Source of the DNA: Desulfobotulus alkaliphilus
Lineage (GTDB): Bacteria; Desulfobacterota; Desulfobacteria; Desulfobacterales; ASO4-4
Direction: 5' to 3'
Length of the DNA stretch: 64,000 bases
Assembly: GCF_007830435.1 (NCBI RefSeq)
Contig: NZ_VLLC01000006.1
Span: 56,404 to 120,403 of the forward strand
Position numbers and translations under genes: made by a program. Below are positions 49,441 to 63,727 of this stretch, piece by piece. Every line of letters starts with the position of its first letter. Within the stretch, counting starts at the first letter, position 1. The notes below the pieces were generated by a model. The model was not told the origin of the DNA and did no database searches. It worked only from the letters and a program-made list of their open reading frames with translations.

Positions 49441-50197
49441 CTGATTTATCGGGACAGGTCGAAGCAGCTCAAAGTACAATTTTTGCACTGTCCTGGTATT
49501 TTACTGGAGTTTTTCCGCTTTTTCTCTGCTTCCCTTCCTGCAATTCTATCCGTCATACATTCCTCAAAGACATAATGAAACATACCTGTTTCTTTCGCCA
49601 TCCACCTTTACAGCCCGGGCCGTGTCGATAAAAATGAATACTGCAATACCCTTAGCCCTCACAGACAAAACCCCATTCGCCTGTCCTGAACAGCATTTAT
49701 AAAAAAATAGACTTCCTTATTTTTCCGTGCTATCAGATTTTCCTAACCTGATCATGAAATGTTCTTATCAAATTAAATATAGCCAGATAAGACGCTTCAT
49801 ATGCAGATGAACTATAGGCATCTTTCCTTCAGAGGAAGCATGCCTGTATGTATTTTATTTCAACTTTTTTCAAAAGGAAACCTTGATATTTATGAAAAAA
49901 ACCTTTTTAAACCAAGCATCCCCCACACAAGGGCGCAATTCTTTTCACAGAAAAATCTGTATTCCCGAAATGCCATTCCGTAAAACCAAAGGAATGTCTT
50001 TCGGTAATTTAATCATTCATGCCTGAGCTAAAACCGCCTTTTTTGCCCCTTTCGTCAGGCCCGAATTTATCCCTTTCATGCCACTGTGCAAAATAGGATC
50101 AAAATTCCCGCCTCCCCTGAACGGAACAAAAAATCCTGGTTTTCATCCGGGCACCCTGTACTCATACAACATTGATGAAGGATTCGGAGAGAACACC
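49441..50197. other. AT-rich gene-free region
   Basis: About 760 nt between the two SulP genes with no convincing gene, RNA fold or sigma-54 promoter. Short frames here have no ribosome site or coding character. The promoter of the second SulP gene must lie here. Confidence 0.6.
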
Positions 50198-51772
50198 ATG
50201 ACTAACACCTTTTCCACCAAAACCCTCCGGGGAGATCTTTTCGGCGGACTCACCGCCGGCATTGTCGCCCTCCCCCTTGCCCTTGCCTTTGGCGTTGCTT
50301 CCGGTGCAGGAGCCGCCGCAGGCCTTTACGGAGCCATCATGCTGGGCATGGTGGCCGCCATTTTTGGCGGTACCCGCACCCAGATATCCGGCCCCACAGG
50401 CCCCATGACCGTTGTATTTGCATCCATTCTCGTGGCTGTAGGCGGTGACCTTGCCACGGCCATGTCTGCTGTACTCATTGCCGGACTTATCCAGATCATC
50501 ATGGGCTGCGTAAAGGTTGGCGGCCTCGTGCGCTTTATCCCCTACCCTGTGATATCCGGTTTTATGAGCGGCATCGGCATTATCATCATTCTGCTGCAGA
50601 TAGCCCCTCTAATGGGAACATCTCCCAAAACGTCACCCTTCCTTGCCATCATGACACTGCCCTCCACCCTTATGGCCCTTAATTTTCAGGCACTGATACT
50701 GGGCGGGCTGACCCTGCTCATCGTTTTTTTTACTCCCATGCGCATCAGCCGGATAATTCCATCCCCTCTGATTGCCCTGATCGCCATAACCCTTCTCTCC
50801 ATGGGACTGGGCTTCAAGGTTCCCGTCATCGGTGAAATTCCCCTTGGACTTCCTGAATTTATCATGCCAGCCTTCTGTCTCCAGGCATGGACCACCATCC
50901 TTGTTCTGGGCATTACCCTTGCCCTTCTGGGAAGCATTGACTCCCTGCTTACTTCCCTTGTGGCAGACTCGGTCACAGGCACCCGCCATAAACCCAACCG
51001 GGAACTGATCGGTCAGGGTCTGGGAAATATGATGTGTTCCTTTGTGGGGGGCCTTCCCGGCGCAGGCGCCACCATGCGCACGGTGGTCAACATCAAGGCA
51101 GGTGGACAGACAAGAATCAGCGGTGTCACCCATGCAAGCCTTCTGCTCATCCTTCTTCTGGGAGCCGCGCCCCTGGCCACCAACATCCCCATGGCGGTTC
51201 TTGCGGGTATTCTCATCAAAGTCGGCGTTGATATTCTGGACTACAAGCTCCTTCGCCTCATAAAAACCGCTCCACGGACAGACCTTTCCGTTATGGCCGT
51301 GGTTTTCGGACTCACGGTGTTTGTGGATCTCATCATTGCCGTGGGCGCAGGCGTTTTCATGTCTATGGGTATGATCATCCACCGTATGGTCCGGCAGGCC
51401 AACTTCAAAATTTACCCTCTGGATAACACCCGATCCGATGCCATGGAAGGCAGAATCCGTATCCTTGAAATAAACGGCCCCTTTTTCTTCGGTTCCATGA
51501 GCAAGCTTGTGGATGAAGTGGACACGGTACTGGATACAAAGGTAATTATTTTTGATTGCCGCAAGGTTCCCTTCATTGACCTGAGTGCTATTTTTGCTCT
51601 GGAAGAAATTATTCTCCGCCTTAAGAGCTCGCACATTCAAACCTTCATTGTACTAAGTGAAGTACTCCGAAATGAACTTGTGCATCTCCACGACAAAGAT
51701 CTTCCCGAAGAAATTCTCTTTGTGGATTTTGAAAACGCACTGGAAGAAGCAAGAAAAATAGATAAAAAATAA
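50198..51772 (+). CDS. SulP anion permease with STAS domain
   Basis: A 524-aa SulP (SLC26) permease. The ATG at 50198 follows GGAGAG; a longer frame from 50078 adds 40 residues unlike the family. It is strongly similar to the membrane and STAS parts of the 47337 product (GDLFGGLTAGIVALPLALAF, ISGPTGPMTVV, SLLTSLVADSVTGTRH, LEINGPFFFGSM, FIDLSAIFALEE) but ends after STAS. So one paralog carries the receiver and the other does not, a natural pair for testing what the receiver adds. Confidence 0.94.
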   Translation: MTNTFSTKTLRGDLFGGLTAGIVALPLALAFGVASGAGAAAGLYGAIMLGMVAAIFGGTRTQISGPTGPMTVVFASILVAVGGDLATAMSAVLIAGLIQIIMGCVKVGGLVRFIPYPVISGFMSGIGIIIILLQIAPLMGTSPKTSPFLAIMTLPSTLMALNFQALILGGLTLLIVFFTPMRISRIIPSPLIALIAITLLSMGLGFKVPVIGEIPLGLPEFIMPAFCLQAWTTILVLGITLALLGSIDSLLTSLVADSVTGTRHKPNRELIGQGLGNMMCSFVGGLPGAGATMRTVVNIKAGGQTRISGVTHASLLLILLLGAAPLATNIPMAVLAGILIKVGVDILDYKLLRLIKTAPRTDLSVMAVVFGLTVFVDLIIAVGAGVFMSMGMIIHRMVRQANFKIYPLDNTRSDAMEGRIRILEINGPFFFGSMSKLVDEVDTVLDTKVIIFDCRKVPFIDLSAIFALEEIILRLKSSHIQTFIVLSEVLRNELVHLHDKDLPEEILFVDFENALEEARKIDKK

Positions 51773-51808
51773 ACGCTTCATATTTTTTTCTGACCCCTCC
51801 TTTTAAAA

Positions 51809-51862
51809 CACGGAGCAGATCGTGCAAAATATGCACCCGGATATTCTGCCTTCTGCTCCGTG
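51809..51862 (+). terminator. Hairpin after the second SulP gene
   Basis: CACGGAGCAGA (51809-51819) pairs with TCTGCTCCGTG (51852-51862); an inner hairpin GTGCA/TGCAC (51822-51836) lies inside. No strong T run. The remaining gap to 52270 has no gene; a perfect TATAAT at 52163-52168 may belong to the MFS gene. Confidence 0.5.
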
Positions 51863-52270
51863 CTCCTCCCATGTCCTTTCATTTTCAGGCCTGCTATCCC
51901 TTAGCGCCATTTATCAGACACCCAGCAACCACTGCATGAACTACAAGCATTCTTTGCACACCATATAAGCCGGAGGTCTTCTCCAGTCTCTGATACAAAA
52001 TCCCTTTACCTTTGGTGCAGTAAATCAGCCTGAATGACTCCTGCACTGATCCGACAGCTTATCGGCCTGCGGCAGCCACTTCCGCTCATTAGAAAAAACT
52101 GCAGTCCTGTTCCGGCACGGAAAAAAACATCAAAAAATACTTTGTTTACAACAAAACCATGGTATAATGATCAGAATTCCGGTTTACGGCAACGGATCTG
52201 TATTTGACAGCATGATATCAAAATACTAAAGATGTGCGTCGCATGACAACATCCCCGTTGATACCGATGA

Positions 52271-52300
52271 CGGAAATTCATCCGGCCGGTGTCATTTCCG
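52271..52300. promoter_or_regulatory. Operator-like dyad before the MFS gene
   Basis: CGGAAAT (52271-52277) and ATTTCCG (52294-52300) are placed symmetrically around a central CCGGCCGG (52282-52289). It lies 32 nt before the MFS start, downstream of the TATAAT, a place suited to a repressor site. Confidence 0.5.
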
Positions 52301-52332
52301 GGGCGAAAAGCATTATATAAGGAGGACGTACA

Positions 52333-53622
52333 ATGACTGAAGGGAAGGTCATGAACCGGTGGCTTGTGGTGATGGGTGCCATCATGGTTCAGATGTGTCT
52401 GGGGGCAATCTACGCCTGGTCCGTGTTCACGGGAGCACTGCAGGATGCCGGTTGGACGGCGGCCCAGACACAGGTGGTATTTTCCGTGGCACTGGTTTCC
52501 TATGCCCTGTCCATGGTGGGTGCAGGCTTCAAGCTGAATACGGTGGGCCCCCGAAATATGGCCATACTGGGCGGTCTGATTCTCGGTACCGGCTATGTGA
52601 TTGCAGGCCTTTTCGGTGGCACAAACTTCTGGATACTGCTGATTTTCATCGGTATTGTGGGCGGTACAGGTATTGGTGTAGGCTATGTGGTACCCATTGC
52701 CGTGGGCATGCGCTGGTTTCCCGATAAAAAGGGTCTCATCACTGGCCTTGCCGTAGCAGGCTTCGGCCTCGGTGCCATGCTCTGGGTCAAGCTTGCGGGA
52801 AGCATGGGTAACCTCATTGCCAATTTCGGCTTAGGCACCACTTTCATTATTCTCGGCATCACCTTTGCCGTTTTTGTTACCATCGGCGGGATGTTCATGG
52901 TCTTCCCTCCCGAAGGCTGGCTGCCCGCAGGCTATACACCTGAGACCAGCTCTGCCGGAGGAACCAGCAGTGTGGCTGTGGAATTCGGTGCCGGTGAAAT
53001 GGTAAAAACCCCGCAGTTCTGGATGATCTTTTTCACCTTTGCCTTCCTTGCCAGTGCAGGCCTCATGAGCATCGGCCTCATGCAGCTTTATCCCATGGAA
53101 GCCCTCATGGCCAATGGCATGGACAGGGTTTCGGCCATGGCCGTTGCGGGAACCGCCATGGCTGTCTTCTTTTCCATCGCCAATGCCGCAGGCCGCGTGG
53201 TATGGGGCATGATCTCCGATGTTCTGGGCCGTAAAAACTCCATGGTCATCCTTGCCTTCTCCCAGGGTCTCGTGGTCATGGCCTTTACCTATATGGCCGG
53301 AACACCGGCCCTTCTCTACCTCGGCGCCACCCTCATCGGTTTCAACTTCGGTGGCGGTCTTGCCCTCTTCCCCACCCTGACAGCGGACACCTTCGGTACC
53401 CAGAGTGTGGGCAGAAACTACCCCCTCATTTTCCTTGCCTATGGCGCAGGCGCCCTGCTGGGTCCCAACCTCGGCGGCATTCTGGGGGGCATGGGGAAAT
53501 TTGGAATGGCCTTCACCATCTGCGGTATCCTCTGTCTCATGGGCGGTATCCTTACCATGATGCTGCGCGCCCCTGAAAAAAAAACGGATGAGGCCGTAGA
53601 AGCCGAAATGGAAGCCGCATAA
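52333..53622 (+). CDS. MFS transporter, OFA (oxalate/formate antiporter) family
   Basis: A 429-aa, ~12-helix carrier. OFA-type features: QMCLGAIYAWSVFTGAL in helix 1, GIGVGYVVPIAVGMRWFPDKKGLITGLAVAGFG around helix 4-5, and GRVVWGMISDVLGRKNSMV after helix 7-8. OFA carriers exchange small carboxylates such as oxalate, formate, lactate or pyruvate; the substrate here is not evident. AAGGAGG precedes the start. Single-gene unit with its own operator-like dyad and a terminator at 53715. Confidence 0.9.
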   Translation: MTEGKVMNRWLVVMGAIMVQMCLGAIYAWSVFTGALQDAGWTAAQTQVVFSVALVSYALSMVGAGFKLNTVGPRNMAILGGLILGTGYVIAGLFGGTNFWILLIFIGIVGGTGIGVGYVVPIAVGMRWFPDKKGLITGLAVAGFGLGAMLWVKLAGSMGNLIANFGLGTTFIILGITFAVFVTIGGMFMVFPPEGWLPAGYTPETSSAGGTSSVAVEFGAGEMVKTPQFWMIFFTFAFLASAGLMSIGLMQLYPMEALMANGMDRVSAMAVAGTAMAVFFSIANAAGRVVWGMISDVLGRKNSMVILAFSQGLVVMAFTYMAGTPALLYLGATLIGFNFGGGLALFPTLTADTFGTQSVGRNYPLIFLAYGAGALLGPNLGGILGGMGKFGMAFTICGILCLMGGILTMMLRAPEKKTDEAVEAEMEAA

Positions 53623-53714
53623 AAGATGGATTCATCCGTAAGATAATTTTCATAAAAACAAGACCTAATGCCTCCTTCTCCACCGGGAAAGGGAGGCCGG
53701 GTGAAGATTCAAAG

Positions 53715-53754
53715 CAAACGGTCAGCCTCCCCTGAAAGGGAGACTGACCGTTTG
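53715..53754 (+). terminator. Terminator after the MFS gene
   Basis: CAAACGGTCAG-c-CTCCC (53715-53731) pairs with GGGAG-a-CTGACCGTTTG (53738-53754), loop CTGAAA, followed by TTTATG. Stem of 16 pairs with one mismatch. A weaker hairpin (CCTCC/GGGAGG) precedes it. Confidence 0.8.
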
Positions 53755-53762
53755 TTTATGCG

Positions 53763-54102
53763 TAACTGTTCAGCACAGTTTTCCAAAACTACGCAAGCCA
53801 GATGCACAGGCTCCAGGCTATTTGCCCGTGACGCAATCTTATTCGGGAGCTTCTTGCCCTGTGCGGAAGCGGCAAAAACTCGCCGCCACAGGCAGGATAA
53901 GCTTTTTGATTACCATGGCAGGCTTAAGCACGCTGCCTTTGTGGCGGCTCAGACAGTTTGCCGCTTCTTTCGCACAGGCCTGCAAAGCTCTGATCCGAAA
54001 CGATTGCAATGTCACTTGCAAATAGCCACGGAGCCTTGCAGCAGTACGAAGCTGCTGCAATTTTAGCATCGGCAGTTCGGAATAAACCATGCTGAATAAT
54101 TA
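53763..54102. repeat. Palindromic MITE-like element, copy 4
   Basis: A ~340-bp copy in inverted orientation relative to copies 2 and 3. Left end TAACTGTTCAGCACAGTTT, right end AAACCATGCTGAATAATTA (imperfect inverted repeat). The interior is nearly identical to copy 3. It sits between the MFS terminator and the convergent DUF4198 gene. Frames on both strands are by-products. Confidence 0.85.
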
Positions 54103-54139
54103 GGTTTATGTTTAACAAGCCTGCCCAGATACAGAACTG

Positions 54140-54958
54140 TCAGATCTCAGGAACAAAGGGCAGGGCAAAGGTCATGGTGGCCGTGTAGCTGATGCTCTCA
54201 CATTTTAAAGCCTTCTCACCCGTGGCGGGAAAACTCCGGCTGGCCGTTACGATCCAGGGACCGTAAAATTCTTCCAGCGTCAGCTTTGCCATGCCTGCGG
54301 CATTGGAGCGGGTTTTTTCTGTCCGGGCATTGGGCGCCACAAGGTTGCTTGCCGTCACTTCATAATCCGCTGCGGGCTTGCCATCCACCAGCACCCTGAC
54401 CTCAAGGCTGTCCCCCGGCTGCAGGCGGTTGGGATTGACCATGGGCACAATTTCCACCTTCTGCCCTATGGGTGTTGCAAAGGGATTGCTGTCCGGTCCG
54501 TCTAAGGGAAGGGTCCGCTGGGGCAGAACAGAAACCAGGGCCTTGGCATATTTTTCATAATAGATCTGGTGAAAATCCTTTTTCCCTTCCACAGGACCAT
54601 AAAAGGCTGGTTTTGTATGGGCCGCAAAAACCCTGGCTCCCGGCGTATGCATATCCACACGCAATGCCCGGAAACCCTCACTGCCCACCTCCATGGGAAT
54701 ACGGCTGCCATCGGGCTCTATGCGCTCCAGCCCGCCCCAGACCCTGTCCGAGATAAAATCCGCCACCGGATAACTGTGGCCCCACCCGAAATAAACAACG
54801 GTCTTGGCCCTTGGCGTGGGTGCATACTTGGCGTGCTGCCAGAGGGCAGGCGTATAATCGGTCATATTGATCCACAGATCATGGGCAAAAACCTGGGATA
54901 CCATCAGGCCCAGTCCCATAAATATGCCCGCCATCAACTTTCCTGCTTTTTTCTTCAT
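54140..54958 (-). CDS. DUF4198-family periplasmic protein
   Basis: A 272-aa secreted protein. The ATG at 54958 follows AAGGAG (a GTG one codon earlier is less likely). Signal peptide to about residue 25 (SQVFAHDLW). The mature start HDLWINMTDY and the C-terminal Ig-like segment (DSLEVRVLVDGKPAADYEVT, NAAGMAKLTL) are typical of DUF4198, a family often found with nickel or cobalt uptake systems. It is divergent from the reductase cluster across a 439-nt gap and may be a periplasmic binder of the same cargo. Confidence 0.85.
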   Translation of the reverse strand: MKKKAGKLMAGIFMGLGLMVSQVFAHDLWINMTDYTPALWQHAKYAPTPRAKTVVYFGWGHSYPVADFISDRVWGGLERIEPDGSRIPMEVGSEGFRALRVDMHTPGARVFAAHTKPAFYGPVEGKKDFHQIYYEKYAKALVSVLPQRTLPLDGPDSNPFATPIGQKVEIVPMVNPNRLQPGDSLEVRVLVDGKPAADYEVTASNLVAPNARTEKTRSNAAGMAKLTLEEFYGPWIVTASRSFPATGEKALKCESISYTATMTFALPFVPEI

Positions 54959-55397
54959 CACCTTCTCCTTTTTTAGTTTAAGCGAAAAATCTAAAACAAT
55001 GCCTACATTTCTGTTTTTTAAAAGTCAATTTGTTTTTGAATTGTAAAAATAAACTTTACACATACAAATTCTTTCCCCAAACCAATATTTTCAGCCATGG
55101 AAACCTGAATCAGAAAGATGACAGGAAGAGGCCCTGTGCCTTTGGCGGTCTCCCCTGAAGGACTCCTTCCCCATATCTTCCGGCTTTTCATCCAGTGATT
55201 TTGTAAACCGGATCTTTGCAAACTTAAACAATCTTTACAGATATAAATTATTTAGCCTAGACAAATTTTATTCTTGACTTCGCATACCACCCCGACTATC
55301 TCTTCCCGAATTGACAGAGGGATTTCCACGGCTCCCCATTCCGGGGCCTGAGCACAGGCAAAAAAATGACCCACATTTTTAAAAGGTTTTTTTACCC
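54959..55397. other. Divergent intergenic region
   Basis: A 439-nt AT-rich gap between divergent genes with no coding frame. It must hold promoters for both sides. I see no Fur, NikR or riboswitch signature that I would trust. Confidence 0.4.
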
Positions 55398-56624
55398 ATG
55401 AAAAAACGATGCCCCGCAGCAAGTCTTCCGCCCATGCAAAAATCCCGCAGGGGCAGGTGCTTTTTTCCACTGCTGCTTGCCCTTATCTTTTTTCTTCCCA
55501 TGGCAAGCCCTGCAGACCCCGGCTTTCTTTTCCTTGAACCCGGCCCTGAAATGCGACGTTCCGGTGGGGGCAATACCCAGGGGGGCGGCCATGGTACAGG
55601 TATGGGTATGCAGAGAAAAAAAGAGGGGCAGGAAGCATCGGAAAATGAAAGGCAGGCCGACAGCAAAAAAACGGGAATGGAGGAAAAGGAAGAAAAAAGC
55701 GCCATGAAATCCAAGGGAAAGGGGCATCCCGGATCAGCGGCTCCGGAATCGGAAAAAGGAGAAAAAAAAGAACGGGAAAAAAGGGCAGCCATGTCCCACC
55801 CCGCCCACTATACCCTGCTTCTGGGCTGGCCACCTGCCATGAAAGCCCAAGCCCCGGAGGATCTTCTCAGGGCAGAGACGGCCATCCTGAGACCGGATCT
55901 TTCCAGAGAGATTCTTACACCACAGAAAGAAGGCCCCGCCATCCGCATCCGGGATGCGGCCCTGATTCAGGGGACCTACCACATCAGCGCATCACTGGAA
56001 AAAACCGACGATGAGGGCAGGATATTCAGGCTTTTCACCACAGCTTCCATGCGCAACACAGGAGAAAAGACAGATCCTCCCGAAAAAAATCCGGAAACTG
56101 CCCTTGAAGCCCATCTGCCATGGTTTTCCATGGAAGACCTGAGTCCGGATCCCGGCAACAACTTTGCAAGAATTCACAGAAAATATACGGGCGACACCCT
56201 GCCCCTGAGAATCCGGCTGGGGGGCATGCCCGTACCGGACCTTCCCGTTACCCTCACCACGGCAGAGGGCTGGCAGCAGACCCTGCACACGGATGAGGCC
56301 GGTCAGGTCAAGTTCATCCTGATCAAAGAACGCTTCCATGACAAAGGTGTGAACAAAGCCCCCATTACCTTTTATGCAAGGGCAGAACTGGACAGCCGTT
56401 CCGAAAAGCATCTGGAGATCATAAAAAGCGTCCGACCGGATGCCGGTGACAATCCCCCCGCTGGAACAGAGATTCTACGCACCTCCCTTGCCCTGACCGT
56501 TCATCCCACGCCCCTGGACTGGGAAAGCCGGGCCGCAGGATTTTACACCCTGATTCTCACGGGCCTTGTCATCGGGCTGGGTACGGCCATCCGGAGAAGA
56601 AAACGGAGGGGAAGATGGTTCTGA
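55398..56624 (+). CDS. Secreted, C-terminally anchored protein with charged low-complexity region
   Basis: A 408-aa protein of unknown function. It has a signal peptide (hydrophobic ~21-37, then SPADPG). Residues ~50-130 are Gly/Met then Lys/Glu-rich low complexity. A folded middle (~235-375) includes an Ig-like segment resembling the DUF4198 C-terminus (GMPVPDLPVTLTT, then HTDEAGQVKFIL). A C-terminal membrane helix (~382-400) is followed by Arg/Lys. An in-frame ATG at 55434 is an alternative start. It is first in the operon before the polyferredoxin (70 nt), so it may be a periplasmic receptor or binder for the cargo. Confidence 0.65.
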   Translation: MKKRCPAASLPPMQKSRRGRCFFPLLLALIFFLPMASPADPGFLFLEPGPEMRRSGGGNTQGGGHGTGMGMQRKKEGQEASENERQADSKKTGMEEKEEKSAMKSKGKGHPGSAAPESEKGEKKEREKRAAMSHPAHYTLLLGWPPAMKAQAPEDLLRAETAILRPDLSREILTPQKEGPAIRIRDAALIQGTYHISASLEKTDDEGRIFRLFTTASMRNTGEKTDPPEKNPETALEAHLPWFSMEDLSPDPGNNFARIHRKYTGDTLPLRIRLGGMPVPDLPVTLTTAEGWQQTLHTDEAGQVKFILIKERFHDKGVNKAPITFYARAELDSRSEKHLEIIKSVRPDAGDNPPAGTEILRTSLALTVHPTPLDWESRAAGFYTLILTGLVIGLGTAIRRRKRRGRWF

Positions 56625-56694
56625 TACGGCCCCCATCAAGTGCTTGTCTCTGCAAGGAAATACCTGTTTTTTCGATTGTCCGGAGGAAAAAACC

Positions 56695-57717
56695 ATGCGC
56701 GTAGACCGTATCCGCCTCTTTGTTCAGGCCCTGTGTTTTGTTTTTCTCATCTATGGCGGCCTTACCATATTCTCCATTGGCACTGCCATTCCCACCATGG
56801 CCTGCATTTATGCGGAAAACCGGGGAGGCTCCTGCTTTCTTTATCCTTTTCAGCGCTTTCTCTCCATGCCCTGGGCCATGCTCTTCGGCAGTGCAGCCAC
56901 AGCCTTTCTCATCTATCTGGGCACCTTTTTCCTGTGGGCGCTGGTTTTTGGTAAAACCTTCTGCGGCTGGATATGCCCCTTGGGTTTTCTTCAGGATCTC
57001 ATCACAAAAATCCGGGAATGGGTGGGCATTGACGGCTCCCGCTTTGCCTGGAAAACACGGGACCGCTTCCAGTGGGTGAAGTATGCCCTTCTGGCACTGC
57101 TCATCCTTTTACCCATGGGCATAGGAAACAGCCTCCTCGGGCTGCCCAGATTCACGCCGGATCTGGCCGTTCCCTTCTGCCAGATCTGTCCGGGTAAACC
57201 CCTCATCCCCCTCTTTGAAGGCGACCTCAGCCATCTGATCATTGATTTTTCCAGCACCACAAAACTTGTTCTCTCAAGCCTTTCCATGCTCATTGCAGGA
57301 CTTTTCCTTGTGGGAGGCTTTGTCAAACGCCGCTACATCTGTGCCTTCTGCCCCATGGCGGCCCTGCTCTCCCTCTTTGACCGTATCGGCTTTGTGGGAC
57401 TTAAAAAAAAAGGAGAAGCCTGCACCTGCTGCGGCAACTGCTTCAGGGCCTGCCCCATGGAAATCCGGGAGATCGCCGAGCTCCGGGACAAAAAACACAT
57501 GGTCACCCAGGACTGCATGCTCTGCATGCGCTGCATTGAAGTCTGCCCGGAAAACAAGGCACTGACGGCCACCATCATAGGACTGCCCGTTTTTTCCGCA
57601 TCCGCCGAAGGCTTCCTGAAACGCCAGAATAAAACAGCTTCAGCAGGAGGCCCCTTCCATGGGGAGACCCCGGCCCTGCAAGATACCGCCACAGACCCAG
57701 AAAGTGCTTCCAAATGA
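56695..57717 (+). CDS. NapH-like membrane polyferredoxin
   Basis: A 340-aa membrane iron-sulfur protein. The ATG at 56695 follows GGAGGAAAA; an earlier in-frame start lies within the previous gene. Four or more membrane helices carry the NapH/NosR-type Cys motifs FCGWICPLGF, PFCQICPGKP and ICAFCPMAA. The C-terminal part has two ferredoxin [4Fe-4S] motifs, CTCCGNCFRACP and CMLCMRCIEVCP. Such proteins pass electrons from quinol or a membrane pool to cytoplasmic or periplasmic acceptors. Its stop overlaps the reductase start (ATGA), so it is the probable electron donor for the activator/reductase pair. Confidence 0.92.
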   Translation: MRVDRIRLFVQALCFVFLIYGGLTIFSIGTAIPTMACIYAENRGGSCFLYPFQRFLSMPWAMLFGSAATAFLIYLGTFFLWALVFGKTFCGWICPLGFLQDLITKIREWVGIDGSRFAWKTRDRFQWVKYALLALLILLPMGIGNSLLGLPRFTPDLAVPFCQICPGKPLIPLFEGDLSHLIIDFSSTTKLVLSSLSMLIAGLFLVGGFVKRRYICAFCPMAALLSLFDRIGFVGLKKKGEACTCCGNCFRACPMEIREIAELRDKKHMVTQDCMLCMRCIEVCPENKALTATIIGLPVFSASAEGFLKRQNKTASAGGPFHGETPALQDTATDPESASK

Positions 57718-59078
57718 AATCTGCCATCATCAAAAAACTGTCTGCCATTTCCGGAAAAAAAAGCCCTGAGGCTGCGGGAAGTCCTGAAGGTTCTTCAAAG
57801 GGCTCTCCCGAAGACCGTGTGGCCAGACGCCTGTCCCTGCACATGGCCATGGCCGTGCGGGAAATTTATGACGCCATTGCCATGGAAAAAAACCGGCCCG
57901 TATCCATGACCCCCTTTGACACCCTTTTTAAAAACTTTGCCGATGCACCGGAAAAAATTCTGCCCACAGGTCCCAGAAAAAAAATCGGCATCTACTGCAT
58001 GGCCGTGCCCGAAGAGCTGATCTACGCCGCAGGTGCCCTTCCCGTAAGGCTCTGCGCGGGCAGCGGCGATGCCGCAGAAGCCGGAGAAGCCCTTTTTCCG
58101 GACGTCTCCTGCCCCATGGTCAAGGCGGCCACGGGCTTCACCCGCACAGGTGTTCTGCCCATGTACAGGGAATGCGATCTCATCATCATTCCCACCACCT
58201 GCGACTGGAAGGTCAAACTGGGGGAGCTGATCTCCCGCCATGTTCCCGTAATGATGCTCTCGGTCCCCAAGTTCAAGGCAGCGGAAAGCTCCCGCAGGTT
58301 CTGGTACGCAGAAATCCGCAGACTGATGCATGCACTGGAAAAGGTTACCGGAAAACGCATCACCAGAAAAAAACTGAGGGCCGCCATGGATATGATGCAC
58401 AAGGCCCAGCAGGAATTCAGAAGGCTGCAGACCCTGCGCATGGATGACCTTTCCCTTATCCGGGGCAGGGATGCGGCTGCCGTGGCCAATGCCTGGTTCT
58501 ATATGGACGGAGCCGACTGGACCCTTGCTGCAAGAAATCTCAATGAAGAGCTTCTGGAAAGAAAAGAAAAGGGCATCGGCACAGCTCCCAGAACGGCCCC
58601 CCGCATTCTGCTCACCGGCTCCCCTGTGATTTTTCCCAACTGGAAAATACCGGATCTCATTGAAAATGCAGGCGGCACCCTCACCTGTGACGAGTTGTGC
58701 AGCTCCGGCAGGCTGCTCTGGGACATGGCCTGCATCGACGAACCCCTTTTTGACGATATGCTGGATGCTCTGGCGGACCGCTGTCTCCTGCCCTGCACCT
58801 GCCCCGTGTTCACGGACAGGGAAGACCGTAAAACCAGACTTTTCAGAATGATCAAAGACTACCGGGTGGAAGGGGTGGTGCATCACGTACTGAAAGGGTG
58901 CCATCCCTATGACATGGAACTGCGGCCCTTAGAGGCGGAGCTTGCTGCGGCAGGGGTTTCACAGCTCAAGATAGAAACGGACTACAGTCCCGAAGATACG
59001 GAACCCCTGCGCACCCGTGTGGAAGCCTTTGTGGAAACCCTTAAGGGCAGACGGCTGCGCATGGGAAAAAGCGCATAA
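57714..59078 (+). CDS. HgdB-like 2-hydroxyacyl-CoA-dehydratase-family reductase (DCCP-type)
   Basis: A 454-aa protein of the 2-hydroxyacyl-CoA dehydratase D-subunit family, including double-cubane-cluster proteins. Cysteines that could bind clusters: VSCPMVKAATGF, IIPTTCDWKVK, LTCDELCSSGR, PCTCPVFTDRE and VVHHVLKGCHPYDME. The family opening GIYCMAVPEELIYAAGALPVRL is clear. There is no second subunit or CoA-ester gene nearby, so it fits the single-subunit DCCP/YjiM type, which performs ATP-driven low-potential reductions. The neighbouring activase and polyferredoxin fit that role. The true substrate is unknown. Confidence 0.88.
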   Translation: MKSAIIKKLSAISGKKSPEAAGSPEGSSKGSPEDRVARRLSLHMAMAVREIYDAIAMEKNRPVSMTPFDTLFKNFADAPEKILPTGPRKKIGIYCMAVPEELIYAAGALPVRLCAGSGDAAEAGEALFPDVSCPMVKAATGFTRTGVLPMYRECDLIIIPTTCDWKVKLGELISRHVPVMMLSVPKFKAAESSRRFWYAEIRRLMHALEKVTGKRITRKKLRAAMDMMHKAQQEFRRLQTLRMDDLSLIRGRDAAAVANAWFYMDGADWTLAARNLNEELLERKEKGIGTAPRTAPRILLTGSPVIFPNWKIPDLIENAGGTLTCDELCSSGRLLWDMACIDEPLFDDMLDALADRCLLPCTCPVFTDREDRKTRLFRMIKDYRVEGVVHHVLKGCHPYDMELRPLEAELAAAGVSQLKIETDYSPEDTEPLRTRVEAFVETLKGRRLRMGKSA

Positions 59079-59254
59079 CCCAAGTCCACCAGAATAGTGA
59101 CCATACTTCTGAAGGCTTCGTTTAAATGGCTGCAAAATGGATATGTAGTACCCATAAAAAATCACTTCGCTTGATTTCATTGGATTTTCATAAAAAAAAT
59201 GACGGGCTTGGGATAGAAAAAATGCATAGAGAGGACGCATAGAAAGGAGGACAT

Positions 59255-60055
59255 ATGGATCTTTACCTTGGCATAGACATCGGCTCCACCACCACCAAAA
59301 TTGCCCTCATGGATACCGAAGGCCTTATGGGAAGCCGGGTGCAGTCCACGGGAGTACACTGCGGTGACACCGTGGAAACCGCCCTGAAGGATCTTCTCCG
59401 TGAAACCGGTCTGCGGCGGGAAGACATCCGCAAAACCGTGGCCACGGGCTATGGCCGCCGCCTCATTCCCTTTGCCGATGAGGTGATCAGTGAAATTACG
59501 GCCAATGTCCGGGGAACCTCCTGGAGCTGCACGGATCTGGATACGCCGGTACGCACCATCCTCAACATCGGTGGGCAGGACAGCAAGGTCATTGCCGTAG
59601 ACAGTTTCGGGGTTACGGAAAACTTTGCCATGAATGACAAGTGCGCCGCAGGAACGGGCCGTTTTCTGGAAACCGTGGCAAGGATACTGGAAATCAACAT
59701 GACAGACTTAGGCCCCCTTTCCATGGAAGCGGAGATCCCCCTGAAAATCAATGCCACCTGTGCCGTGTTTGCGGAATCCGAAATCATCTCCCTCATTGCC
59801 CGTAAAAAAGCCCCCTCGGAAATTGCCGCAGGAGCCCACTATGCCATTGCAAGGCGGCTTTCCCGCATGGCACGGCGGGTGGGTGTGACGGAACCCGTGG
59901 CCTTTGACGGCGGCCCTGCCCTGAACCGGGGCCTTGTAAAGGCCATAGAAGATGAGCTGGCCCTGGATATCCATGTCCCGGCATGGCCCCAGATCACAAC
60001 GGCCATCGGTGCCGCCCTTCTGGCAAGGGATGCCCACATGGCGGCCGCCGCATGA
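59255..60055 (+). CDS. Acyl-CoA-dehydratase activase (HgdC/YjiL-like ATPase)
   Basis: A 266-aa ASKHA-fold iron-sulfur ATPase. Motifs: GIDIGSTTTKIAL, NIGGQDSKVIAVD, the cluster Cys in NDKCAAGTGRFLE and the second in INATCAVFAESE, then VAFDGGPALNRG. The dimer holds one [4Fe-4S] cluster and couples ATP hydrolysis to injecting one electron into the HgdB-like partner encoded just upstream (176-nt gap). AAGGAGG precedes the ATG. It overlaps the SafE-like gene (ATGA). Confidence 0.95.
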   Translation: MDLYLGIDIGSTTTKIALMDTEGLMGSRVQSTGVHCGDTVETALKDLLRETGLRREDIRKTVATGYGRRLIPFADEVISEITANVRGTSWSCTDLDTPVRTILNIGGQDSKVIAVDSFGVTENFAMNDKCAAGTGRFLETVARILEINMTDLGPLSMEAEIPLKINATCAVFAESEIISLIARKKAPSEIAAGAHYAIARRLSRMARRVGVTEPVAFDGGPALNRGLVKAIEDELALDIHVPAWPQITTAIGAALLARDAHMAAAA

Positions 60056-60699
60056 GTGCTCTGCCTGCACTTCCCATGGAATTCCCCGCCCTTTTTCTGG
60101 CGGGTCTGGCCTTTGGCCTTGGCATCTGCAGCACCTCCTGCCTTCCCCTGATGGGAACCTGCATTCTGGGAAACAGCAGGAAAGCTTCCGATGGCATACT
60201 GGCCCTGCTGAGCTTTGTCTGCGGCAGACTGTTCACCGCAGGCCTTATCGGTGCCATTTTCGGCAGGCTGGGGCAGGCGGCCATGGCCCGGCTGGAAACC
60301 CCGTCCATGGCACTGGCTTCGGGCCTCTTCACCCTTCTGGCGGGACTCTTTCTCCTGTTCCGGCCACGGTGCAGCGGATGTGCCAGCAGGAAAAGGGCGG
60401 CTGCCCCTCCCCTGCTGCTGGGTCTGGCAAGCCCTCTGGTGCCCTGCCTGCCCTATGCGGCCATGATGGCGGCAGCGGCGGCCTCGGGTTCCGCCATGAA
60501 GGGTGCGGGCCTTGCCGTGGTTTTCACCCTTGGCACCAGCCTTTCTCCCCTGATTCTGGCCTGCATGGCCATGGGTTGGGTGGGAGCAGGCATGGCCGGA
60601 AAACTTCCCCGGCAGATTGAAGGCTTTTCAAGGGCTGCCGGACTGGTGGTGGCCATTTTCGGCATCAAAACCCTGCTGCTGGGTCTGGGGATGGCCTGA
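60052..60699 (+). CDS. DsbD/SafE-like membrane protein
   Basis: A 215-aa, ~6-helix protein of the DsbD_2/COG2836 group. The ATG at 60052 overlaps the activase stop; an upstream in-frame start lies inside the activase. Conserved Cys positions are GICSTSCLPLMG in helix 1 and SPLVPCLPY in helix 4, the place of the redox pair in CcdA/DsbD. It could move reducing power across the membrane or export a small anion. Its coupling to the activase ties it to the reductase system. Confidence 0.8.
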   Translation: MSALPALPMEFPALFLAGLAFGLGICSTSCLPLMGTCILGNSRKASDGILALLSFVCGRLFTAGLIGAIFGRLGQAAMARLETPSMALASGLFTLLAGLFLLFRPRCSGCASRKRAAAPPLLLGLASPLVPCLPYAAMMAAAAASGSAMKGAGLAVVFTLGTSLSPLILACMAMGWVGAGMAGKLPRQIEGFSRAAGLVVAIFGIKTLLLGLGMA

Positions 60700-60772
60700 G
60701 TGCAGAAGCAGGGACCAGATCATCCCTTGCAGGGGCAGGCCCCTGTGCCTCCCCTTCTCCCCTCTTCTGTCG

Positions 60773-60799
60773 GCGGGTACCCGTAAAGGGTTCCCCTAC
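60773..60799. repeat. REP-like palindrome, copy A
   Basis: A 27-bp sequence with core CCCGTAAAGGG, nearly identical in reverse complement to 63581-63607 (two differences). The gap 60700-61166 also holds GTCCTTAA/TTAAGGAC (60889-60918) but no gene; the TonB receptor promoter must lie here. Confidence 0.6.
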
Positions 60800-61166
60800 A
60801 AAAAGGGACCATAAAAAACATCCGTAGGGGCACCCCCCCTTGCCTGCCCTACCTGCTCCTTTATGGCGTTGAGGCTGGTTGTGGGTATTGTCCTTAAGGG
60901 CTTTAAGGTCGTTAAGGACTTTAAAGAAGATGAGGGTAAAAGCGCATTGCCGAACCCTCAAAACGATATTTTTACACCCCAGTGATCCTTGCGGCCATGG
61001 AAGTTCATGCCCTGCATGAACAGCCATCGCCCAGGGTTTTAGTCGCAACTAAACCATTAAGCATGACAAAATTATTTTACATAAAATCTTTAACCTTTCT
61101 GATGACCAGCAAGGCTCAGACTGCGTGGTTATCAGATTCACTTTTAAGATATAAAGGAGATGTGGC

Positions 61167-63011
61167 ATGCATTGCAGCAGTTTGAAAAAAACCTTCTTTC
61201 CATTTCTGGCAGCAGGTCTTCTGGCCCTGCCCGCCCATGCCTTTCACCCGCCCGAAAGCGAGCTGGAGCAGATTGTGGTCAGTGCCAGCCGCAGCGAACA
61301 GCGGGTGGAAGACGCCATCAGTCAGGTTCATGTCATCACCGCAGCGGATATTGAAGCCCGGCAGATCAAAAATGTTCAGGGGCTTTTAAGGGATATCCCC
61401 GGCGTTCAGATCAGACAGAACACCGGCTCATGGGGCAATGGCGGCAATGTGCAGCTCATGGGCATGAACCCGGACCAGACCCTTATCCTTGTGGATGGAC
61501 AGCGCTTCACGGGTGGGCACGGCAGTGTGGATATTTCCTCCATCCCCGTAGAAAACATTGAGCGCATCGAAATCGTCAAAGGCCCCGGTTCCGCCCTCTA
61601 TGGCTCCGACGCCATGGCCGGTGTCATCCATATCATCACAAAAAAAGCAGGAACAGGAACAGACTTCCGCACCGGCCTCAGCGCAGGCAGCCGGAACCGC
61701 TCCCTTGCCACGGCAGGGATGAGCACGGGCAATGAAAACATGGGGCTTCGTCTGGATTACTCCCGCAGCCGCACCACCGGCGTTGATAAAGATGAAGACA
61801 CCATGGAAAACGAAACCCTTGCCGCAAGCCTCGATTACCGGCCCACAGAAAGGTTCTCCCTGCGTATCCAGCCCTTTTTTTCCCGGCAGACCAATGAAGT
61901 TACAGGAGAAGCCAACCGCATTCAGGAACGCAGCCGCCTCAATGCCAGTGCGGATATCCGTCCCGATGCCCTTTCAAAGCTTCAGGTCCGGGGCAGTTAT
62001 TTTTCCCATGACCACAAAAAAAAGGACAAAAGCTTTGATTCCGTGTCCACCCTCCATGAGTTTGAAACCGCCTATTCCCGCATGGTGGGCCTCCACACCC
62101 TGAGTGCAGGCTATGCCTATACGGGGGAGTCCATTGACGACAAACACAAGAATTACACAAAAGACTCCCAGGATACCCATGCTGTTTTCCTGCAGGATGA
62201 AATGGACTTCGGCAGGCTTTCCCTCACGGTGGGGGGCCGTGTGGACCACCATGATGAGTGGGGCACAGAGGCCCATCCCAGGGCAGGCCTCCTTTTCCGG
62301 GCAACGGACAATCTTCGGTTCAGGGCTTCCGCAGGCACGGCCTTCATGGCCCCCACCCTCCTGAAACTCTATGCCGACGGCTGGCGTATGGGCCCGTGGA
62401 CCATGCATGCCAACCCCGACCTGAAGCCGGAAAAATCCCTCTCCTATCAGGCAGGCATGGACTATCAGATCCATGAAAGCCTTCTGGTACGGGCAGGCCT
62501 CTTCCGCAATGAAATTGATGATCTTGTTGAAACCTTAAGAAACACCCAGGCAAGGACCATGACCTACCGCAACATCAGCGAAGCCCTCACCCAGGGAGCA
62601 GAAACCAGCATCATCTGGCGGCCCGTATCCTCCTTTGCCGCCACCCTTGGCTACACCTGGACGGATACGGAAAACAAAGATACGGGAAAAAAACTTCTCG
62701 ACCGGCCCGAACACAGGGCAACGCTGGATCTGGACTACCATCTGGCACGGCCCGACCTGCGTTTCCGCCTCACCACGGCATGGACAGGGGAACGGGAATA
62801 TGAAGAACAAATGGCTCAGCACGGCCAGACCCTGACCATAAGAAAAACCCGCAGCGCCTACACCATGGTGGATCTGGCCATTACCCATCATGTCACAAAA
62901 AATCTTGAAATATTTACCCGCCTTGAAAACCTCACCAATGAAAAAGACGTTAGCGATGAGCCGGACATCGACGGTACGGAGTGGATGGCGGGCATGAATT
63001 TCAGGTTCTGA
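61167..63011 (+). CDS. TonB-dependent outer-membrane receptor
   Basis: A 614-aa receptor. Signal peptide to about residue 25 (LLALPAHAF). A TonB-box-like EQIVVSASRSEQ is followed by a plug domain (VQGLLRDIPGVQIRQ, GMNPDQTLILVDGQRF, ERIEIVKGPGSALYGSDAMAGVIHIIT) and a 22-strand barrel ending ...GMNFRF with the terminal aromatic. The relatively short barrel resembles colicin-I-receptor/BtuB-like cobalamin, heme or siderophore receptors. AAGGAG precedes the start. It follows the reductase cluster and probably imports its metal or substrate. No BtuFCD-type transporter is near. Confidence 0.94.
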   Translation: MHCSSLKKTFFPFLAAGLLALPAHAFHPPESELEQIVVSASRSEQRVEDAISQVHVITAADIEARQIKNVQGLLRDIPGVQIRQNTGSWGNGGNVQLMGMNPDQTLILVDGQRFTGGHGSVDISSIPVENIERIEIVKGPGSALYGSDAMAGVIHIITKKAGTGTDFRTGLSAGSRNRSLATAGMSTGNENMGLRLDYSRSRTTGVDKDEDTMENETLAASLDYRPTERFSLRIQPFFSRQTNEVTGEANRIQERSRLNASADIRPDALSKLQVRGSYFSHDHKKKDKSFDSVSTLHEFETAYSRMVGLHTLSAGYAYTGESIDDKHKNYTKDSQDTHAVFLQDEMDFGRLSLTVGGRVDHHDEWGTEAHPRAGLLFRATDNLRFRASAGTAFMAPTLLKLYADGWRMGPWTMHANPDLKPEKSLSYQAGMDYQIHESLLVRAGLFRNEIDDLVETLRNTQARTMTYRNISEALTQGAETSIIWRPVSSFAATLGYTWTDTENKDTGKKLLDRPEHRATLDLDYHLARPDLRFRLTTAWTGEREYEEQMAQHGQTLTIRKTRSAYTMVDLAITHHVTKNLEIFTRLENLTNEKDVSDEPDIDGTEWMAGMNFRF

Positions 63012-63529: not shown

Positions 63530-63607
63530 GGGCAGGCGCAAGGCCTGCCCCTACGAATGGTTTTTACGGCCCTGTTTTTTGTAGGGGCACCCTTTACGGG
63601 TGCCCGC
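63530..63607. repeat. REP-like palindromes, copies B
   Basis: Two units: a palindrome with arms GGGCAGG and GCCTGCCCCTAC (63530-63554) and the 27-bp unit 63581-63607, the inverted match of copy A. Both share the GTAGGGGC core typical of scattered REP-type repeats. The region 63095-63727 shows no convincing gene; short frames across it lack coding character. Confidence 0.55.
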
Positions 63608-63727
63608 AAACAAGCGTAAAATCTGGTCATATAATTTCCATGATTAAAGTTCGCATGGCTGAAAGACAGTGGTAATCAGAAAAACTCTTGTTTAAAGGGA
63701 TGATTTTTTAACCCATACGGAGAAGTT

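Follow-up and report, generated by a model that had tools for sequence, protein, structure and literature searches.

A candidate import-and-reduce module of double-cubane-type reductase, membrane polyferredoxin and TonB receptor in Desulfobotulus alkaliphilus

Introduction

Double-cubane-type reductases include DCCP of Carboxydothermus hydrogenoformans (PDB 6eno, 7yyl) and YjiM of E. coli. To our knowledge, their physiological role is unsettled. A stretch of 64,000 nucleotides from the Desulfobotulus alkaliphilus genome (G000:C7:56404-120403 of 4.0 Mb; hereafter the window) encodes a reductase of this type together with a NapH-like polyferredoxin, an ATPase activator, two proteins with a known or predicted DUF4198 fold, a DsbD_2/SafE-type membrane protein and a TonB-dependent receptor. 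This cluster probably represents an import-and-reduce system: a metal-containing nutrient would be imported via TonB and reduced by low-potential electrons directed outward, with a corrinoid as the most likely substrate of the family. Several relatives of the module are located directly behind a vitamin-B12 riboswitch. Anaerobes may thus have a way, not described before, of importing and reducing nutrients that contain cobalt or another metal. No earlier description was found in a literature search that reached few subscription papers. The biochemistry presented here is deduced from genes, predicted folds and alignments.

DCCP and YjiM belong to the same fold family as the window reductase and are likewise encoded next to an ATPase activator. 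Six cysteines of 6eno are kept. The window family differs by an additional cysteine forming a CxC motif (25 of 26 modules, 13% of reductase-only relatives), an obligate polyferredoxin partner and the linkage to receptors and riboswitches. The double-cubane reductase model NF040772 is the top-scoring model for the window reductase (335.1 bits), yet its cut-off of 350 is not reached. The polyferredoxins NapH, NosR and PceC have four helices, two CxxxCP-type motifs and two Fer4 motifs in common with the module polyferredoxin. The latter carries four invariant cysteines on the predicted outer face, lacks an FMN domain, NapG and a terminal oxidoreductase, and is partnered with an ATP-driven reductase instead.

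Transport-coupled systems offer further comparisons. A secreted DUF4198 protein, a TonB receptor and transmembrane electron transfer also characterize the PepSY-DUF2271-DUF4198 systems, which are linked to iron reduction (PMC8238504). However, the module applies iron-sulfur proteins and ATP hydrolysis; PepSY, DUF2271 and ApbE were not identified in the window cluster, and the nine proteins scanned at 50078-63011 gave no PepSY or DUF2271 match. In the Hmu heme de-chelation of Bacteroidota, a CobN-like gene is located beside a TonB receptor (PMC12583661). The related loci L053 and L067 have such a gene, besides DUF2162 and MotA/ExbB-type genes, in an operon with a cobalamin riboswitch. The window has no Hmu-like system. 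Uptake by BtuB/BtuFCD shares with the family the TonB receptor, a riboswitch in some members and some BtuF, FecCD and CbiZ neighbors. The reductive module is an addition to it, and the window receptor fails the BtuB model. Very low potentials are generated by ATP at metallo-tetrapyrroles during the activation of methyl-coenzyme M reductase (MCR, F430) and of corrinoid proteins (PMC12176620), but these systems are cytoplasmic and operate without receptor or membrane polyferredoxin.

Distribution and gene neighborhoods

Genes were assigned from open reading frames and family-model searches; gene positions are window coordinates (Table 1). Labels such as L052 and L033 denote loci in other genomes that were compared with the window module, while L087 lies in its own genome. 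A sequence-only reading had proposed a NapH-like polyferredoxin, an HgdB-like reductase, an ATPase activator, a DsbD/SafE-like protein, a TonB receptor and a divergent DUF4198 protein. All of these are open frames matching the expected families. The window reductase and polyferredoxin are the single PF06050 protein and the single PF12801 (Fer4_5) protein found in the genome, and are thus dedicated to the cluster.

Conservation of the gene order had been set beforehand as a check. The set is more than a chance assembly, because genomes far apart show the same genes in the same arrangement. The conserved module comprises the anchored DUF4198-fold protein, polyferredoxin, reductase and activator, often followed by the DsbD_2 protein; receptor and DUF4198 protein join. 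L052 (Syntrophaceae UBA4059) is the nearest relative found, with identities of 77% (polyferredoxin), 74% (reductase) and 84% (activator). Here, receptor, DUF4198 protein, anchored protein, polyferredoxin, reductase, activator and DsbD_2 protein are encoded as one same-strand run. L033 holds the same gene set.

Relatives of the reductase are present in 163 of 395 scanned Desulfobacterota genomes, with a break after five matches at 39-44% identity. Each of these five is preceded by a gene for this type of polyferredoxin. The polyferredoxin profile was detected in 15 of the 395 genomes, nearly always adjoining an independently found PF06050 reductase gene. Pairs of both genes occur in Desulfobacterota, Planctomycetota, Acidobacteriota and Campylobacterota. 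The polyferredoxin is also present in the phyla of L053 (3 of 294 genomes) and L056 (2 of 297; query genomes counted in both), in the order of L052 (3 of 149) and in one Desulfobacterota family, where 27 of 37 genomes carry it. As seen among loci L055, L056, L064-L080 and L100-L129, the module is common in that family and frequently occurs more than once in a genome. For some of the other carriers, bin names (Nc350 and Ehx436, for example) suggest a termite-gut origin. A module was also found on a plasmid of Sulfurovum mangrovi, and a single-protein search for close relatives gave six loci only, among them L052, L053 and L057. The module is rare and widely scattered, as expected of a horizontally moved trait.

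The closest partner of the window in a tree of the polyferredoxins is L052 (100/100), and the two group with L034, L035, L036 and L078 (96/94). The group is part of a clade of 13 (100/100) that includes the riboswitch-bearing L053 and L057; further riboswitch-bearing modules are placed outside. The root was set at the midpoint for drawing only. An early cobalt link followed by loss or a change of substrate in the window branch is possible, and so are several gains.

Neighbors within 10 kb were compared between 31 modules, many of them on short contigs, and 15 reductase-only loci without polyferredoxin. The expectation that receptor and DUF4198 gene are co-conserved with the module was borne out: a TonB receptor is present near 15 of the 31 modules, a DUF4198 gene near six and a DsbD_2 gene near seven, each compared with none of the 15 reductase-only loci. 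ExbB, ExbD or TonB genes occur near several modules and again near none of the 15. Corrinoid and cobalt genes were seen beside modules only. CbiZ adjoins L057, L071 and L076, CobN-like genes adjoin L053 and L067, and CbiM and CbiQ adjoin L081, so that CbiZ, CobN-like or CbiM/Q genes are neighbors of six modules. L057 is further accompanied by FecCD and BtuF-type genes. In L053 (11186-17727) and L067 (1129-6697), the CobN-like gene is found with DUF2162 and MotA/ExbB-type genes, and the L053 protein begins with a signal-like, His-rich stretch. This set resembles an Hmu-like de-chelatase system placed in a B12-riboswitch operon. Some gene calls in relatives were made by eye, and L057, L066 and L082 are among the metagenome bins with frameshifts.

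Cobalamin riboswitches

A cobalamin riboswitch (RF00174, 64-115 bits) is located upstream on the same strand in eight of the 31 modules (L053, L057, L065, L066, L067, L071, L076 and L079), 0.9-3.3 kb from the polyferredoxin gene. Only the anchored-protein gene lies between riboswitch and polyferredoxin in L065, L067, L071, L076 and L079; receptor, BtuF or Exb/Ton genes intervene in L053, L057 and L066. In L065, a terminator-like hairpin was seen by eye after the riboswitch. No RF00174 match was obtained in eight reductase-only loci. A Poisson estimate gave 0.06 expected riboswitches for the eight seen; it serves as a guide only, because of the relatedness of the modules, a manual count of the riboswitch total (about 115) and the position of two of the eight slightly beyond the assumed 3 kb. 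A later set of 20 modules yielded RF00174 in four, one of them partial; this set derives from one bacterial family, mostly with 1.5 kb of upstream sequence only, and is not fully independent.

Redox proteins

The reductase aligns with the whole of PF06050 (325 bits, profile positions 1-342). Its scores are below the cut-offs of the CoA enzymes, with 113 of 700 bits for the HadC type, 85 of 454 for BzdN and 54 of 421 for BcrC. A second PF06050 subunit, as in 2-hydroxyacyl-CoA dehydratase and benzoyl-CoA reductase, was not found in the genome. The six cysteines aligned with 6eno correspond to window C95, C133, C163, C329, C363 and C396, and each is kept in 26 of 26 modules. HadC lacks two of them (positions 76 and 309 of the 6eno sequence). 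We take these six cysteines to be cluster ligands. The score of the activator exceeds the TIGR00241 cut-off of 125.

The polyferredoxin reaches 44.8 bits against Fer4_5 (cut-off 22). It remains below the cut-offs of the NapH models, scoring 77 bits with TIGR02163 (cut-off 213) and 77 with PRK09477 (cut-off 234). Four extra cysteines distinguish the family: C37 and C47 are present in all 54 modules with data, C162 and C165 in all 55. One Paracoccus NapH and one Agrobacterium NosR, used for comparison, lack them. An AlphaFold model (pLDDT 80) predicts long helices at residues 3-24, 67-85, 119-144 and 188-210 and assigns both extra cysteine pairs to loops on the same side, which is opposite to that of the Fer4 domain. 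The pairs probably face outside according to the positive-inside rule, because the N-terminus (MRVDRIR) and the loops beside the CxxxCP motifs are basic. A sequence search of solved structures matched the Fer4 part only, and Foldseek gave no significant match for the membrane part. In the Sulfurovum operon, the anchored protein is replaced by a fusion of Fer4_5 with a region weakly matching DUF4198.

DUF4198-fold proteins, DsbD_2 protein and receptor

The divergently encoded DUF4198 protein scores well above the PF10670 cut-off of 34. A histidine directly follows the predicted signal peptide cleavage site (QVFA|HDLW, by eye), likewise in most of the family. Homologues adjoin the receptor in L052 and L033, and that of L075 is 57% identical. 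DUF4198 proteins bind Ni2+, Zn2+ and Co2+ and have TonB receptors as neighbors; a Kd of 18 nM was determined for Ni2+ in one family member (PMC12537917).

The secreted and anchored protein that had been proposed to precede the set is present. It has no Pfam match, PF10670 included, and no PHROGs match. Its homologues match PF10670 weakly, with 21.8 bits in L052 and 23 in L053, below the cut-off. The AlphaFold model is of moderate confidence (mean pLDDT 67). In a VIA comparison, it aligns with the protein Zcp (9mhm, Z 16.8) and with a DUF4198 protein solved with bound Ni (9gcb, Z 15.2), the next best match being 6.0. Structures of Zcp have been solved with Cu, Zn and Co. The anchored protein is thus predicted to have the DUF4198 metal-protein fold. 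Anchored proteins of L034-L036 and L078 are rich in histidine.

The DsbD_2 protein reaches 60 bits against PF13386 (cut-off 24.9), and the cysteines listed in Table 1 are invariant in an alignment of eight homologues. For the TonB receptor, a PDB search placed the colicin I receptor Cir slightly above BtuB.

Proposed function and alternatives

The proposed mechanism starts from the gene content and its co-conservation, the riboswitches linked to related modules, the conserved cysteines and the predicted folds; from these, we infer electron direction, cluster types, substrate and chemical step. As its family suggests, the TonB receptor would take a metal compound into the periplasm. The soluble and the membrane-anchored DUF4198-fold proteins would, judging from their fold, bind this compound or the metal in it. 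The ATPase activator would act in the cytoplasm and drive very-low-potential electrons into the double-cubane-type reductase. Cysteines and topology of the polyferredoxin suggest that its Fer4 and CxxxCP motifs move electrons across the membrane. The electrons may then arrive at the four outward-facing cysteines and reduce the metal compound there. The reduced compound might be set free, give up a ligand, be remodelled or be handed on. For the DsbD_2 protein, a role in supplying thiol electrons or in keeping the cysteines reduced is possible.

The sequence-only reading had proposed uptake plus low-potential reduction of a cofactor, metal complex or small molecule. The comparisons support it, and the family substrate can be narrowed: the cobalamin riboswitches and the CbiZ and CobN-like neighbors point to a cobalt compound, most likely a corrinoid. 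In the window branch, which has no riboswitch, the substrate may be a corrinoid, iron or another metal complex; chances are about even for a corrinoid or cobalt, and iron has about one chance in four. A more elaborate proposal is tentative. It holds the module to be a new transport-coupled redox machine, in which an ATP-driven double-cubane reductase sends very-low-potential electrons outward via the polyferredoxin and its outward-facing iron-sulfur or metal site, a TonB-imported corrinoid or other metallo-tetrapyrrole is reduced in the periplasm, and DUF4198-fold proteins, joined in some members by CobN-like ones, release or remodel the metal. Such a machine would be the first physiological role assigned to double-cubane proteins.

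Several observations weigh against the proposed import-and-reduce mechanism. No riboswitch or other known RNA was detected in the window, even at permissive thresholds, and no RF00174 match at its nearest relatives L052, L033, L034-L036 and L078. The sole RF00174 of the genome, at L087 (G000:C16:36001-50000), precedes BtuF-, BtuD- and BtuC-type genes and another TonB receptor, so a separate route of corrinoid uptake exists. The window receptor is 24% identical to the receptor of that operon. Its best score of all models is with the BtuB model TIGR01779, at 254 bits against a cut-off of 600. FeoB and a Fur-like gene flank L052, and FeoB and a DtxR-like gene are located near L033 (regulators by eye), which points to iron. 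No activator gene was found within 10 kb of the L053, L057 and L065 modules, where it may be encoded elsewhere in the genome. The counts derive from related genomes and short contigs and overstate the independence of the modules. Finally, the electron direction could be the reverse.

The Feo genes are part of the case for an iron route, in which the window branch reduces a TonB-imported ferric chelate or heme in the periplasm for uptake of Fe2+ via FeoB, with cobalt confined to other branches. The PepSY-DUF2271-DUF4198 systems are Fur-regulated and tied to iron reduction (PMC8238504; PMC3751524), and HmuS-type CobN homologues strip iron from heme (PMC12583661). Receptors of L036 and L078 score best as siderophore receptors, those of L068, L071 and L075 as heme receptors. 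As a test of the substrate, these scores were rejected as weak: among receptors with a linked riboswitch, those of L066 and L071 fit heme models best and that of L087 a siderophore model, and thus the models discriminate poorly. Moreover, FeoB is found near few modules and also near one of the 15 reductase-only loci, and no Feo genes are near the window module. The iron route is rated unlikely. A ZIP transporter, also adjoining L052, and CbiM and CbiQ beside L081 fit yet another proposal, in which Ni, Co or Zn ions arrive as metallophore complexes and no tetrapyrrole is involved. DUF4198 proteins would act as acceptors, in agreement with the nanomolar Ni2+ binding, the metals in the Zcp structures and the His-rich anchored proteins. 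However, release of Ni2+ or Zn2+ needs no strong reductant, and CbiZ and BtuF-type neighbors favor corrinoids in other branches. Such transport of metal ions is improbable.

Reversed electron flow is a serious rival because of the CbiZ and BtuF-type neighbors, even if it is thought rather unlikely. The polyferredoxin would take quinol or periplasmic electrons and feed activator and reductase, and an imported corrinoid would be reduced in the cytoplasm, e.g. from Co(II) to Co(I) ahead of adenosylation or CbiZ-dependent remodelling. Some operons encode CbiZ and a FecCD/BtuF-type importer. ATP-driven reduction of corrinoids to Co(I) is a known need according to work cited in PMC12176620, and participation of classical NapH in quinol oxidation is reported in literature cited in PMC8238504. 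This direction leaves no role for the anchored DUF4198-fold protein, the Fer4_5 fusion of Sulfurovum and the invariant outer-face cysteines, and an inner-membrane ABC importer is missing beside the window module. A common fold family would also allow an ordinary 2-hydroxyacyl-CoA dehydratase or a general double-cubane reductase with unrelated neighbors. The sequence-only reading had noted that no genes of CoA-ester metabolism are nearby, and homologous modules have no consistent CoA-ester genes beside them. The sole exception is L065 (12649-15610), where CoA-transferase-like and BKACE-like genes (by eye) are located on the opposite strand, 1.5 kb from a riboswitch-linked module. Scores far under the cut-off of every CoA-dehydratase and benzoyl-CoA reductase model, the single subunit and the strong co-conservation with polyferredoxin and receptor make this explanation very improbable.

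If the electrons do flow outward, the system would allow ATP-powered periplasmic reduction at potentials beyond quinol-linked systems, and represent a new step in the acquisition of cobalt or other metals by anaerobes. The reductases of this branch have a constant partner in the membrane as well as a receptor, to which several genomes add a riboswitch naming the ligand class. The question of the reductase substrate thus becomes testable with corrinoids, heme and metal chelates.

Gene arrangement and further features of the locus

Overlapping genes had been claimed for the set. ATGA overlaps join polyferredoxin to reductase and activator to DsbD_2 gene. The other joints are gaps, with 176 bp between reductase and activator and 467 bp between DsbD_2 and receptor gene. 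By homology, the polyferredoxin starts at ATG 56695, and it therefore does not overlap the upstream anchored-protein gene.

Table 1. Features of the module and its surroundings, in window coordinates
Feature	Position	Strand	Evidence or remark
DUF4198 protein, predicted secreted metal-binding	54140..54961	-	PF10670 85.8 bits; homologues in L052, L033, L075
Perfect dyad TGTAAA-N7-TTTACA, possible operator	55042..55060	.	sole exact copy in genome
Secreted protein, C-terminal membrane anchor, predicted DUF4198 fold	55398..56624	+	AlphaFold model, VIA fold matches
NapH-like polyferredoxin, four helices, two C-terminal Fer4 motifs, extra predicted outer-face cysteines C37, C47, C162, C165	56695..57717	+	Fer4_5, Fer4
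Double-cubane-type reductase (HgdB/DCCP-like), family CxC at C361/C363	57714..59078	+	PF06050, NF040772
ATPase activator of reductase	59255..60055	+	TIGR00241 249 bits, PF01869 192 bits
DsbD_2/SafE-type membrane protein, invariant cysteines 26, 30, 110, 132	60052..60699	+	PF13386
TonB-dependent receptor	61167..63011	+	Plug and barrel; best model TonB-B12, far under cut-off

A one-mismatch copy of the dyad is located at 55202-55220, also between the divergent genes of the DUF4198 and the anchored protein. As a regulon motif the dyad was rejected; its exact form and a backwards control each occur once in the genome. A c-di-AMP riboswitch was found on the minus strand at L037 (9006-9152), near an ordinary double-cubane reductase.

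The receptor gene is flanked on both sides by copies of a palindrome about 60-80 bp long, inverted relative to each other (60773-60832 and 63546-63615). This element looks like a repeat of the REP/MITE type, because at least 40 copies are present across the genome. It may have helped to move the receptor gene, which is located upstream in relatives.

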